45,610 bases of DNA, taken from contig JAJZEE010000023.1 of the NCBI GenBank assembly GCA_021805735.1, positions 1 to 45,610 of the forward strand, in the 5' to 3' direction. Of the stretch, positions 4,188 through 43,393 are shown one piece after another; position 1 is the stretch's first letter, and each line of letters begins with the position of its first letter. The notes beneath the pieces are model-generated. The model ran no database searches. It saw only the letters and a list, made by a program, of their open reading frames with translations, and was not told where the DNA came from. Source of the stretch: Bacillota bacterium (GTDB lineage: Bacteria > Bacillota > Bacilli > Alicyclobacillales > SLC66). The position numbers and the translations under genes were made by a program.

Positions 4188-4219
4188 TCCCCCTATCCCG
4201 GAAAATGTTCCTGCCGACC

Positions 4220-4289
4220 GGATTCATATGCTGTGCCCCTGCTCAGACACGGCTGCGCCGAACTCGCGACGGGCACAGCATATGAATCC
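4220..4289. repeat. Hairpin repeat, copy A (19-bp perfect stem, conserved loop)
   Basis: Arms 4220-4238 (GGATTCATATGCTGTGCCC) and 4271-4289 are perfect inverted repeats around a 32-nt loop containing CACGGCTGCGCCGAACTCGC. It is preceded by TATCCCGGAAAATGTTCC and followed by a smaller hairpin near 4299-4320 (TTTTGC TTC GCAAAA). The same loop with a different but self-complementary stem recurs at 4363-4435 and, more diverged, at 38244-38322. It lies in the spoIIIAD-spoIIIAE gap and contains no gene. Confidence 0.85.
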
Positions 4290-4362
4290 TGGCGAAGTGA
4301 GATTTTGCTTCGCAAAACTCAGACATGGCCGTATATCCCGGAAAATCGATCGTCTCTGCCCG

Positions 4363-4435
4363 CCGGAATCGTATGCTGCGCCGCTTCTCAAACACGGCTG
4401 CGCCGAACTCGCCTCGGCACAGCATTCGATTCCGG
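4363..4435. repeat. Hairpin repeat, copy B (18 of 20 bp paired, conserved loop)
   Basis: Arms 4363-4382 (CCGGAATCGTATGCTGCGCC) and 4416-4435 pair at 18 of 20 positions around a 33-nt loop that matches copy A over CACGGCTGCGCCGAACTCGC. The upstream flank repeats TATCCCGGAAAA and adds CGTCTCTGCCCGCC, which also precedes copy C. The downstream flank GCGGGTTTTTCATTCC resembles that of copy C. Copies A and B are about 140 nt apart in the same orientation. Confidence 0.85.
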
Positions 4436-25978: not shown

Positions 25979-26089
25979 GCAAGAACACGAGAGACAAGCG
26001 GTCATAGGAGCGTGGGGGAGATGAACAGCCTTGAACGAGAACATGGCAAGCGCGAGAACACGAGAGACAAGCGGTCATAGGAGAGTGGG
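25979..26089. repeat. 38-nt direct repeat, two copies with a 35-nt spacer
   Basis: Copy 1 (25979-26016) and copy 2 (26052-26089) match at 36 of 38 positions over GCAAGAACACGAGAGACAAG and the following CGGTCATAGGAGCGTGGG. The period is 73 nt. They lie between comGA and the JAMM gene, outside any supported gene. The cause is unknown: regulatory site pair, duplication, or relict of a mobile element. Confidence 0.85.
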
Positions 26090-26103
26090 CGACGAGGACT
26101 GCA

Positions 26104-26574
26104 TTACGGAGCGGCGATGTCCAGCGGAACCGGTTGCGCGCAGTATCCCTCCTCTGTGCGATGATATTTGTACACTCGACAGGCAGGCGCGCCCTGGCGA
26201 AAGTTGACCACGATGTGGAGCACCTCGCGATATCCGTAGGCGTTTTGCAGATCAGTATGTGATGGTTCCCCATTGCCATCTGGATGACTGTGCACAGTAG
26301 CGACGACGCGCCTTCCTTCCCGGTCAGCACGCAAGATAGCGCGGGTCGCGTGGACCGCGCGCGCCAGATACCGATGCGTTGACGGCAACGCCCCTTCAAG
26401 CGGCACGAACTCATCACCGTAAAATGTGTCGTCGACGCGATCGCCAATGAGAATGCCTCCACTTTCAAACGGCAACCACTGTGATACATGCCGGCCAATT
26501 GCCTCCAGCGCGTGAACGGTCACGATCAGGGCGCGCCGATCGCCGCCATCGCGCTGATTGCCTTCCCACTCCAC
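26104..26574 (-). CDS. JAMM/MPN+ family metalloprotease-like protein
   Basis: A 156-residue protein with a complete JAMM zinc motif: Glu37 (FESGGILIG) and HSHPDGNGEPSHTD giving His95, His97, Ser105 and Asp108 with exact HxHx7SxxD spacing. Bacterial members remove peptides from ubiquitin-like carriers such as ThiS/MoaD or act in amino-acid or sulfur metabolism. No such carrier is nearby. The GTG start at 26574 follows GAGGAAGTG and overlaps the Nudix gene by 49 nt, so both come from one transcript. The substrate is unknown. Confidence 0.85.
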   Translation of the reverse strand: MEWEGNQRDGGDRRALIVTVHALEAIGRHVSQWLPFESGGILIGDRVDDTFYGDEFVPLEGALPSTHRYLARAVHATRAILRADREGRRVVATVHSHPDGNGEPSHTDLQNAYGYREVLHIVVNFRQGAPACRVYKYHRTEEGYCAQPVPLDIAAP

Positions 26575-38136: not shown

Positions 38137-38243
38137 TAGTGTACCACGTTCGCGAACTGTGCGCTCGTTCAAATTGTGATCAACCTCGCAATCCCTGTCC
38201 GTATCGTGTAAATCCGTCTCTGCCCGCCGAAAATGTTCCTGCT

Positions 38244-38322
38244 GGTCGGAGTCATATATTGCGCCCCTGCTCAGACAACGCTGTCGCTAAACTCGCGACG
38301 GGCGCAATATATGACTCCGACC
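38244..38322. repeat. Hairpin repeat, copy C (23-bp perfect stem, conserved loop)
   Basis: Arms 38244-38266 and 38300-38322 are perfect 23-nt inverted repeats (GGTCGGAGTCATATATTGCG...). The 33-nt loop matches copy A at both ends (CTGCTCAGACA ... AACTCGCGAC) but differs in the middle. The left flank CGTCTCTGCCCGCC and AAAATGTTCCTGC, and the right flank TTTTCATTCC plus TATCCCGGAAA (38400), recur around copies A and B. A further ATGGCGC/GCGCCAT hairpin lies near 38373-38392. It occupies the maf-radC gap. Confidence 0.85.
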
Positions 38323-40508: not shown

Positions 40509-41711
40509 ATGCTCACATCGCCATTTTTAACATTTGCGACTGTGTTTGTGATTGCATTTGCGATGCCAGTTCTTGCCCTGGCGATCCCTAAGCTGAGGCT
40601 GCCCACGGCTATTCTCGAAATTGCCTGCGGAGTGCTGGTTGGCGCGGGGGGCTTTCGCATCGTACTGCCCCCTGACTGGTTGCGGGTCGTCACCAGGATC
40701 GGACTTCTCTACCTCATGTTTCTCGCGGGTCTCGAAATCCGGTTGCCAACCGGGCGGCGCGATAATCCAGGCAAATCTGCGCACGCCGGCGTCACCCTCC
40801 CTCTGTTTTACGGAGCTGTCGTGAGTCTCGCGATCACAGTGGCGTTGGCGCTGGCCGCGAGCCATGCGTTGGCGTACTTTGGCATGACCCGAAATCCAAA
40901 TCTGACCGCGCTCATACTGTCCACGACGTCCCTTGGCGTGGTCGTGCCCATTCTCAAAGAAACGGAACTTATCGACCGGCCATTTGGTCAACTCCTGCTT
41001 CTGTCCGCGCTGCTGGCCGATTTCTCCACGGTGGTTGCCGCTTCGTTTGTCCTGCAGGGTCACGCCAGTCCAAAGGGCTCCCTTCTCGTACAACTCTCCG
41101 TGCTCAGCATCCTGGCGATCCTGCTGTACAGCGCAGGAAAGGTTATACTGCGTCATCTGAATCTGCGGCAGCGCATCGTGCGGGTGTCACAGTTGGGCGT
41201 GCGGGGGGCGCTGGCCATCATGGCAATCTGTGGCGCGGCGGCGCTATGGTTGCATGCAGAAGTGATATTGGGTGGATTCGTAGGGGGTCTCGTCTGCTCT
41301 TTATTGGCGGAGGAAAAGCACGAGGCATTGCGGGAAAAACTGGAGATCGTTGGCTATTCGCTATTCTTGCCGTTATTTTTCATCACCGTGGGCATGGAAC
41401 TCGATTTGAGCCACGTGAGCTTCGCCTCGGTTCTCATGGATCTGCCGCTGTACGCGGCGATCGCTTTCCTGGTCAAGATTGGCGCCGCCACTGCGTTCCT
41501 TCCCTTTCTGTCAAAGCGCCAGACAGCCGCGGCGGGCGTGCTCATGTCAACGAGATTTACGCTCGTCGTCGCAGTGGCCACATTGGCGGCGCGCGGCGGA
41601 ATTATCGACGGAACCGAGGAAGGGTTGTTGATCGCCACGGCCATGGTCACCGTCCTGATCGCCCCGCCCCTGTTTTCCCTGCTGCAAAGTCCAGTTCGGC
41701 AGACCGTCTGA
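40509..41711 (+). CDS. Cation:proton antiporter, CPA2/Kef-type membrane domain
   Basis: A 400-residue polytopic protein with about 11-12 hydrophobic segments and Na+/H+ exchanger features: LRLPTAILEIACGVLVGAGG at the start, GLLYLMFLAGLEIRLP, and a proposed ion-site region LLLSALLADFSTVV. It lacks the cytoplasmic TrkA-N domain of full Kef proteins. It stands alone on the plus strand with a strong ribosome site (AGGAGGGAG). It probably exchanges Na+ or K+ for protons; ion specificity cannot be read from the sequence. Confidence 0.9.
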   Translation: MLTSPFLTFATVFVIAFAMPVLALAIPKLRLPTAILEIACGVLVGAGGFRIVLPPDWLRVVTRIGLLYLMFLAGLEIRLPTGRRDNPGKSAHAGVTLPLFYGAVVSLAITVALALAASHALAYFGMTRNPNLTALILSTTSLGVVVPILKETELIDRPFGQLLLLSALLADFSTVVAASFVLQGHASPKGSLLVQLSVLSILAILLYSAGKVILRHLNLRQRIVRVSQLGVRGALAIMAICGAAALWLHAEVILGGFVGGLVCSLLAEEKHEALREKLEIVGYSLFLPLFFITVGMELDLSHVSFASVLMDLPLYAAIAFLVKIGAATAFLPFLSKRQTAAAGVLMSTRFTLVVAVATLAARGGIIDGTEEGLLIATAMVTVLIAPPLFSLLQSPVRQTV

Positions 41712-41817: not shown

Positions 41818-42147
41818 TCATTTGTGTCGCGCCACGGCGTCTGCGAGCGCGGGAACCCGAATCGAGCCATGAGACGCATCCCACACAACATCCCCATTTT
41901 TCACTAGCATAACCTGCGGGGACGCATGCTTCACGCGCAATCGATCAGCAAGCCAGAGAGACAATGGCCTTGACTCAATAACCTTAACCATCAAGATGGG
42001 AACTTCGTGTTTCCTGTCAAACTCGTCTACCTCCTGGTAGGCTCTGGCGCTGACAGGTCAGGTGGTGCTGTGCTTGAAGAGAAGATATAAGCCGTCAGTT
42101 CCTGTCGCGGCGCTCGTCCACTCATCTTGCGTCGAAATCTCGATCAT
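41818..42147 (-). CDS. ytxJ: YtxJ-family thioredoxin-like protein with in-frame TGA at the active-site Cys position; candidate selenoprotein
   Basis: Reading from ATG 42147, 29 codons (MIEISTQDEW..., LYLLFKHSTT) are followed by TGA (42060-42058) and then 79 codons in the same frame (PVSARAYQEVDEF..., PVSARAY, PLSLWLADRLRVKHASPQVM, LVKNGDVVWDASH) to TGA at 41818. YtxJ (DUF2847, bacillithiol system) proteins have HSTTCPIS here with the single conserved Cys; the TGA replaces that Cys exactly. Everything else is intact, at the family length (109 aa). A SECIS-like hairpin follows the TGA. Ribosome site AAAGGA lies 11-12 nt upstream. Likely selenocysteine at position 30; otherwise a one-base nonsense mutation (TGC to TGA) or sequence error. 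Confidence 0.75.
42013..42060 (-). promoter_or_regulatory. Candidate bacterial SECIS element after the ytxJ TGA
   Basis: On the minus strand the base after TGA begins CCTGTCA (42057-42051), which pairs perfectly with TGACAGG (42019-42013). Inside, CTACC (42040-42036) pairs with GGTAG (42031-42027) around the tetraloop AGGA. The apical loop begins 22 nt after TGA, within the 16-37 nt range known for bacterial SECIS, and has G in its second position, as the consensus asks. The architecture recalls E. coli fdhF. Function is inferred. Confidence 0.65.
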
Positions 42148-42222
42148 GACACGCCACATCCTTTGCCATAGCAGGTTAGATTCGCACGGCGGCCCATCTG
42201 CGGGCACACTCTCCAGTATACC

Positions 42223-42316: not shown

Positions 42317-43297
42317 CTAATGCCCCAATATGTAAACCTTTACGACTTGCCGTCCAAAATCGATGGCTTGGCTGACCGAGTTGTAACACAAATCGATGCG
42401 ATACCCCTGAATTGCTCCCCCCGTGTCATTGGCAACGCCATATCCATAACCGGGAATGTACAGCTTCGTTCCCAAAGGAATCACGCTGGGATCGACCGCA
42501 ACGTCTCCGTACCCCGCCGGAGCCCCCGTGGCCGTAAAACCGCCCGGACTGGAATAAGCTGTAGCCACGACAGTGAGCACTTCATTTGCAACGAGTGACG
42601 CGTCGCTGCGGGCTGTGACCGGCGCCTGTTGCTGCGCGGTGCCCACGTCGATGAGTTCCGTCACCGGTTGCTGGATCACGCGCCTCTGACTCCGCGTCAT
42701 GACCAACTTGCCGTTTACGTAAAACTTGCGCGTTACGATGCGCGCCATGCCATTTTGACCTGATCGCGCCACCACATCTGTACCCGCCTGATACGCGCTG
42801 GACGGTTGTCTCTGGATCGCATAAGGCAGCGTCAGCGACTCCGTATCCACCACTGTCTTGCGTCGGGTAATGGTGACGCGCATGCCGACCCGTATGGGGG
42901 CGCTAGTCGGCGCATTCAGTATATCTCCCTTGGCAAGGCGGATTCGCAACGATTGCAGAAGCTCTCCAACCGTGTTTGCCAGAGTGTGCACCTCGACCGG
43001 AGCTTTCGCTCCGTCGCGCAAAGTAATTGCATTTGCCTTCTTTACGACGATCTTCATTCCGTTTTGAAGTAGTGTCGCTCTTGCTGGTTCGACCAAATCG
43101 TAATCCGTCACGTGGACGCCCTGCTGCGCCAGAAACTGCGCCACCGTTTCACCGGCAAACGTGCCTTCCTGACTTGCGTGACCATTGACCACCACGTCAA
43201 CGGACTTGTATGAACTCATGCCCGTCGTTAGTCCAAGCGCTACAAGCGCCGCTGACGTCACCATCAGTCCATACTTGGTTCGGTGGAACTTCTGCAC
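42317..43297 (-). CDS. YabE-like cell-wall protein with G5 and 3D domains
   Basis: About 326 residues: N-terminal membrane/signal segment (GLMVTSAALVALGLTTG), two ubiquitin-like DUF348 repeats (VDVVVNGHASQEGTFAGETV and KIVVKKANAITLRDGAKAPV), a G5 domain (about 150-235) and a C-terminal 3D domain (VVATAYS, DVAVDPSVIPLGTKLYIPGY, GYRIDLCY) with the three Asp expected for a lytic transglycosylase-like fold. It likely cleaves peptidoglycan outside the cell. The GTG at 43297 follows GAGG by 7 nt. Confidence 0.88.
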   Translation of the reverse strand: MQKFHRTKYGLMVTSAALVALGLTTGMSSYKSVDVVVNGHASQEGTFAGETVAQFLAQQGVHVTDYDLVEPARATLLQNGMKIVVKKANAITLRDGAKAPVEVHTLANTVGELLQSLRIRLAKGDILNAPTSAPIRVGMRVTITRRKTVVDTESLTLPYAIQRQPSSAYQAGTDVVARSGQNGMARIVTRKFYVNGKLVMTRSQRRVIQQPVTELIDVGTAQQQAPVTARSDASLVANEVLTVVATAYSSPGGFTATGAPAGYGDVAVDPSVIPLGTKLYIPGYGYGVANDTGGAIQGYRIDLCYNSVSQAIDFGRQVVKVYILGH

Positions 43298-43393
43298 CTG
43301 ACCACCTCTTTTCACGTATGAAAAACCTACGGAAAAGGGGCAAAGCACCAGACAGCGCCAACTGCCTTTAAAGCTAATTTCAAGCTAGACAGT

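Follow-up and report, generated by a model that had tools for sequence, protein, structure and literature searches.

A probable selenocysteine-encoding bacilliredoxin gene (brxC) with TGA at its catalytic cysteine codon

We identified a brxC/ytxJ-type gene in which an in-frame TGA takes the place of the catalytic cysteine codon. We hold with high confidence that it is a genuine selenocysteine (Sec)-encoding gene. It is best read as representing a new selenoprotein family, a monothiol bacilliredoxin that acts through a selenol, with Sec insertion and enzyme activity being inferred. The gene lies in the window analysed here (the whole stretch of 45,610 nucleotides, contig C135), which belongs to an assembly of 3.76 Mb that is 97% complete (source genome, G000). 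An earlier note had claimed an intact 109-codon YtxJ-family gene with TGA at its active-site cysteine; the coordinates proved exact and the product passed the family cut-offs. Its further claim of a Sec-containing bacilliredoxin-like enzyme is supported by the Sec machinery, the recurrence of the TGA, a downstream hairpin and the lack of decay, while Sec insertion remains unproven at the bench. The gene is on the minus strand, a point on which the note was silent; on the plus strand the frame of this region is broken. The relevant features, in window coordinates, are as follows:

41818..42147, minus strand: probable brxC/ytxJ-type selenoprotein gene, monothiol bacilliredoxin family (109 codons including Sec, plus terminator)
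42147-42145, minus strand: start ATG of brxC (read from the sequence)
42058..42060, minus strand: in-frame TGA at the sole catalytic Cys position (Sec30, KHSTT-U-PVS; placed by alignment)
41820-41818, minus strand: terminator TGA of brxC (read from the sequence)
42159..42164, minus strand: possible ribosome-binding site AAAGGA, 11 nt 5' of the ATG (read from the upstream sequence only)
42027..42040, minus strand: bSECIS-like hairpin CUACC-AGGA-GGUAG, 22 nt from TGA to apical loop (kept in Sec genes, absent from Cys genes)
42317..43348, minus strand: G5/3D-domain protein gene upstream of brxC (flank held in fixed synteny by Sec and Cys genomes alike)
40509..41711, plus strand: Na+/H+ exchanger family protein gene, downstream of brxC and convergent with it (flank likewise in fixed synteny)

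The TGA at 42060-42058 is the sole internal stop of an otherwise intact frame, and its readthrough would give a product of 109 residues counting Sec. With this codon read as cysteine, the product matches PF11009 with an E value of 2.7e-28 (98 bits against a cut-off of 24.2) and TIGR04019 with 96 bits (cut-off 77.25), the BrxC/YtxJ match covering its whole length. Residue 30 occupies a column of the BrxC homologue alignment that is otherwise invariantly cysteine and never tryptophan. The active site, TUPVS, has the single nucleophile expected of BrxC, with Sec in place of the cysteine of the TCPIS type, the motif that holds the cysteine of Bacillus subtilis BrxC (as cited in PMC8301015 and PMC10950700). 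The source genome contains one copy of brxC.

The protein resembles the known BrxC/YtxJ family (PF11009, TIGR04019; B. subtilis BrxC) in length and in its KHST-x-x-P-I/V-S site, and syntenic orthologous Cys forms exist in the same bacterial family. In contrast to these Cys forms, its catalytic cysteine is encoded as TGA (Sec) and followed by a SECIS-like hairpin that they lack. Like the known thioredoxin-fold selenoproteins, namely the Sec glutaredoxin (PF00462), the UXX-star family, the thioredoxin-like Sec.1/Sec.2 and the Prx-like proteins (PMC13188914), it is a redox protein of the thioredoxin fold whose nucleophilic cysteine is replaced by Sec, but it belongs to another protein family and its TUP[IV]S motif has no resolving cysteine. 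AbxC of Deinococcus (NF053651) shares the domain family and gives a weak match of 43 bits, far under the cut-off of 340 bits; AbxC carries TCHKT and an additional domain at its C-terminus (PMC8301015). The only solved relative found by sequence was PDB 3IV4, a putative oxidoreductase (E 8.7e-23), and the title of its record does not call it a selenoprotein.

The source genome contains the complete Sec machinery, comprising selA, selB, selD and a tRNA-Sec with the anticodon tca. The SelA match reached 592 bits, with its gene adjoining selD, and the SelB match 388 bits. There are two selD genes, each with TGA at its own Sec site: the copy beside selA (L170/L190, contig C112) encodes GUGCK and the copy located elsewhere (L171, contig C6) GUACK. 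The hairpin after the Sec-site TGA of each selD passes the same bSECIS scan as was applied to brxC. A second tRNA-Sec match, on contig C125, was rejected as a tRNA-Ser. The alpha subunit of formate dehydrogenase (C132:33471-35477, L192) was also rejected as a sign of Sec use: it is present without an in-frame stop, so the usual FdhA is not the basis of Sec use here.

A conserved gene with an in-frame TGA could in principle also be explained by code reassignment or by a suppressor tRNA, with TGA read as tryptophan or cysteine. This explanation is scarcely tenable, given that the homologues have cysteine rather than tryptophan at residue 30, that brxC itself terminates at TGA, that in-frame TGA is restricted to the site of the catalytic cysteine, and that the genome holds a full Sec set whose SelD uses UGA at its own Sec site.

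A profile search of 201 genomes, 119 of which contained BrxC, returned roughly 135 BrxC matches. TGA was present at the exact catalytic codon in nine of the 201 genomes, spanning five genera and two families, and the rest had cysteine. The carriers are G000, G001 and G002 (one genus); G006 and G013; G007 and G014; G004; and G053, from the second family; they are acidophiles from mine water and soil. No in-frame TAA or TAG was found among the roughly 135 matches, and this absence, together with the recurrence of TGA at one codon in nine genomes, shows that the TGA is not there by chance. In 399 Bacilli genomes, a degenerate nucleotide pattern encoding KHSxTUP[IV]S matched only this gene family, and its reversed control gave zero matches.

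SelA was found in all nine TGA genomes and SelB in eight, and Sec-BrxC is associated with SelB among the 119 BrxC genomes (p = 0.0017, Fisher's test; these are related species and not independent). The genome search did not find SelB or tRNA-Sec in G013, nor a genuine tRNA-Sec in G001, gaps that plausibly stem from incomplete metagenome assemblies. A tenth TGA, in G057, was rejected as a further case. The alignment puts it at a tryptophan position and the genome is without SelA, SelB and tRNA-Sec, which makes it a control; it behaves as a pseudogene lesion or sequence error. This copy (L070, C1:2439818-2440126) is accompanied in G057 by a second BrxC copy that is intact and has cysteine.

The same origin, a TGC or TGT codon mutated or miscalled to TGA, has to be weighed for the nine genes. 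Both cysteine codons are one base from TGA, most carriers are low-coverage metagenome assemblies, and G057 demonstrates that a stray TGA can arise in a BrxC copy. However, the recurrence of TGA at one codon contradicts a pseudogene or an assembly error, and the nine carriers include G053, a near-closed two-contig genome that probably comes from an isolate. The lack of TAA and TAG in any BrxC match, the purifying selection past the TGA, and the linkage of the TGA to SelB/SelA and its coupling to the hairpin also count against this explanation, to which we give almost no credence.

Purifying selection acts on the sequence 3' of the TGA, with dN/dS near 0.1 in the pairs G000/G002 (0.09/0.85) and G007/G014 (0.14/1.29) and near 0.2 in G006/G013 (0.32/1.47). 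We conclude that this part of the gene is maintained as functional protein; none of the decay in relatives that the earlier note had named as a possible refutation was seen. Sec and Cys genes of the family share the flanking G5/3D-domain and Na+/H+ exchanger genes and are therefore orthologs. On a tree built with Sec written as cysteine, the well-supported branches imply three or more changes between the two states, and the best tree needs five. The congeners G053 (Sec) and G049 (Cys) are in opposite states, and G004 carries near-identical BrxC paralogs, one with Sec and one with cysteine (L077 and L079). Sec and Cys forms thus alternate at a single syntenic locus, within a genus and between the G004 paralogs.

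UGA-Sec decoding is often inefficient in bacteria. This raises the possibility of a regulatory stop, with a 29-residue peptide as the usual product and the full-length Sec protein made only when selenium is plentiful. We consider this improbable as an account of the gene, because purifying selection both before and after the codon and the Sec/Cys orthologs at one locus show that it is the full-length product that is conserved, but a selenium-dependent output is not excluded.

Further support for Sec encoding comes from the RNA downstream of the TGA. The bSECIS model specifies a stem of 4-16 bp, a loop of 3-9 nt with a G among its first two positions, a loop placed 16-37 nt after the UGA, and an MFE of -7.5 kcal/mol or lower (PMC13188914). 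Running such a model on the region, as the earlier note had suggested, revealed a hairpin of this type in all nine TGA genes, with the loop G in place 19-25 nt after the TGA. In eight of them the loop reads AGGA or AGGU and lies 22 or 25 nt from the TGA; G053 has GGA at 19 nt. The hairpins of G007 and G014 are displaced by one codon relative to the protein alignment but retain their form. The 48 nt after the TGA have an MFE of -8.2 to -20.0 kcal/mol in the nine TGA genes. The terminal hairpin alone reaches -4.5 to -11.4 kcal/mol, whereas the best such hairpin in 19 Cys genes has only -2.5 kcal/mol.

Six of the seven stem pairs show two-sided changes, and the covariation score is 0.83, compared to at most 0.17 when the alignment is slid. 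The sequences were registered by the loop, which favours covariation by construction; two-sided stem changes are also present in a fixed codon register, between G000 and G006 and between G007 and G014. In G004, the Sec paralog has CUACC-AGGU-GGUAG and the Cys paralog CUACC-AUGU-GGUAG, so the stem is intact in both and the loop G is absent from the Cys copy. The G000 hairpin is modest when taken alone (5 bp; equalled by 12% of synonymous randomisations), while those of G006, G013, G007 and G004 are matched by 2% or less. No Rfam model matched over the gene at E values up to 5; bSECIS elements are too variable for good coverage.

We propose that the UGA would be decoded by SelB with Sec-tRNA-Sec, guided by the hairpin loop about 22 nt downstream, a step inferred from sequence. 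By analogy with the cysteine thiolate of B. subtilis BrxC, the selenol of Sec30 would then attack a protein-bacillithiol mixed disulfide. This would leave a Brx-Se-S-bacillithiol (selenenylsulfide) intermediate, to be resolved by a second bacillithiol or by Bdr/YpdA; both of these steps are extrapolated from family chemistry. B. subtilis BrxC strips bacillithiol from proteins such as GapDH, BrxB and Bdr (as cited in PMC8301015 and PMC10950700). In the source genome, the bacillithiol synthesis enzyme BshC was found over its cut-off, with 415 bits. The predicted ability of the host to make bacillithiol rests on bshC alone, as BshA, BshB and Bdr were outside the search.

De-bacillithiolation is probably the main job of Sec-BrxC, although both its substrate and its connection to bacillithiol are inferred from the family it belongs to. 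The alternative is a true selenoprotein with another principal role, such as the handling of metalloids or selenium or, foremost, the reduction of peroxides. Peroxides suit selenol chemistry, and a bacillithiol-dependent peroxidase activity is known from AbxC, an atypical BrxC found in Deinococcus (PMC8301015). We regard such a role as the less likely one, though it deserves consideration: the sequence is that of a standard BrxC, with UP[IV]S for CPIS rather than the TCHKT of AbxC, and no operon partner points to another substrate.

Sec, a rarer and more reactive amino acid than cysteine, in general has a lower pKa, exchanges faster and resists permanent overoxidation. It is plausible that these properties are gains in metal-rich acid waters; the advantage of selenium over sulphur in this enzyme is, like its catalytic role, an inference. 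Returning to de-bacillithiolation as the preferred function, we lean towards viewing the protein as the bacillithiol system's first selenoenzyme. It would be a selenol bacilliredoxin of acidophilic Bacilli, with repeated Sec/Cys switching, that is quicker than its Cys counterpart at removing bacillithiol from proteins (and perhaps at reducing peroxides) or that withstands overoxidation better.

The BrxC/YtxJ redox family is already known; what is new is its Sec form. A 2026 review catalogues 119 prokaryotic selenoprotein families or subfamilies, among which PF11009/TIGR04019 is absent, as are the words bacilliredoxin (brx), bacillithiol and DUF2847 (PMC13188914). In the open full-text literature we found no mention of a selenoprotein together with bacilliredoxin, or of YtxJ together with selenocysteine, the annotation of GenBank records being outside the scope of this search. 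Both sources agree with the earlier note, which knew of no description of such an enzyme. As far as could be found, this is the first selenium protein tied to the bacillithiol redox system. The list of selenoproteins gains a family, and selenium enters bacillithiol redox biology, where no selenoprotein has seemingly been reported. Since standard gene-calling programs would end the gene at codon 29, it has probably been missed or shortened in public genomes. The repeated Sec/Cys switching at one locus offers matched natural pairs for the long-standing question of what advantage selenium has over sulphur in a redox enzyme with a single nucleophile: the G004 paralogs would be the natural Sec versus Cys comparison, and the Sec/Cys pair within one genus is another.

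Elsewhere in the window, an imperfect dispersed repeat of 62 nt occurs at 4211-4272, 4356-4417 and 38239-38300 (65-84% identity). It was recognised via spurious ORF peptides, and a similar peptide is present in L061 at about 1340-1430, apparently upstream of selB; the repeat is possibly a small interspersed element of the source genome. Two direct repeats of 54 nt, 73 nt apart and 83% identical, lie at 25979-26105, 3' of type II/IV pilus-like genes.
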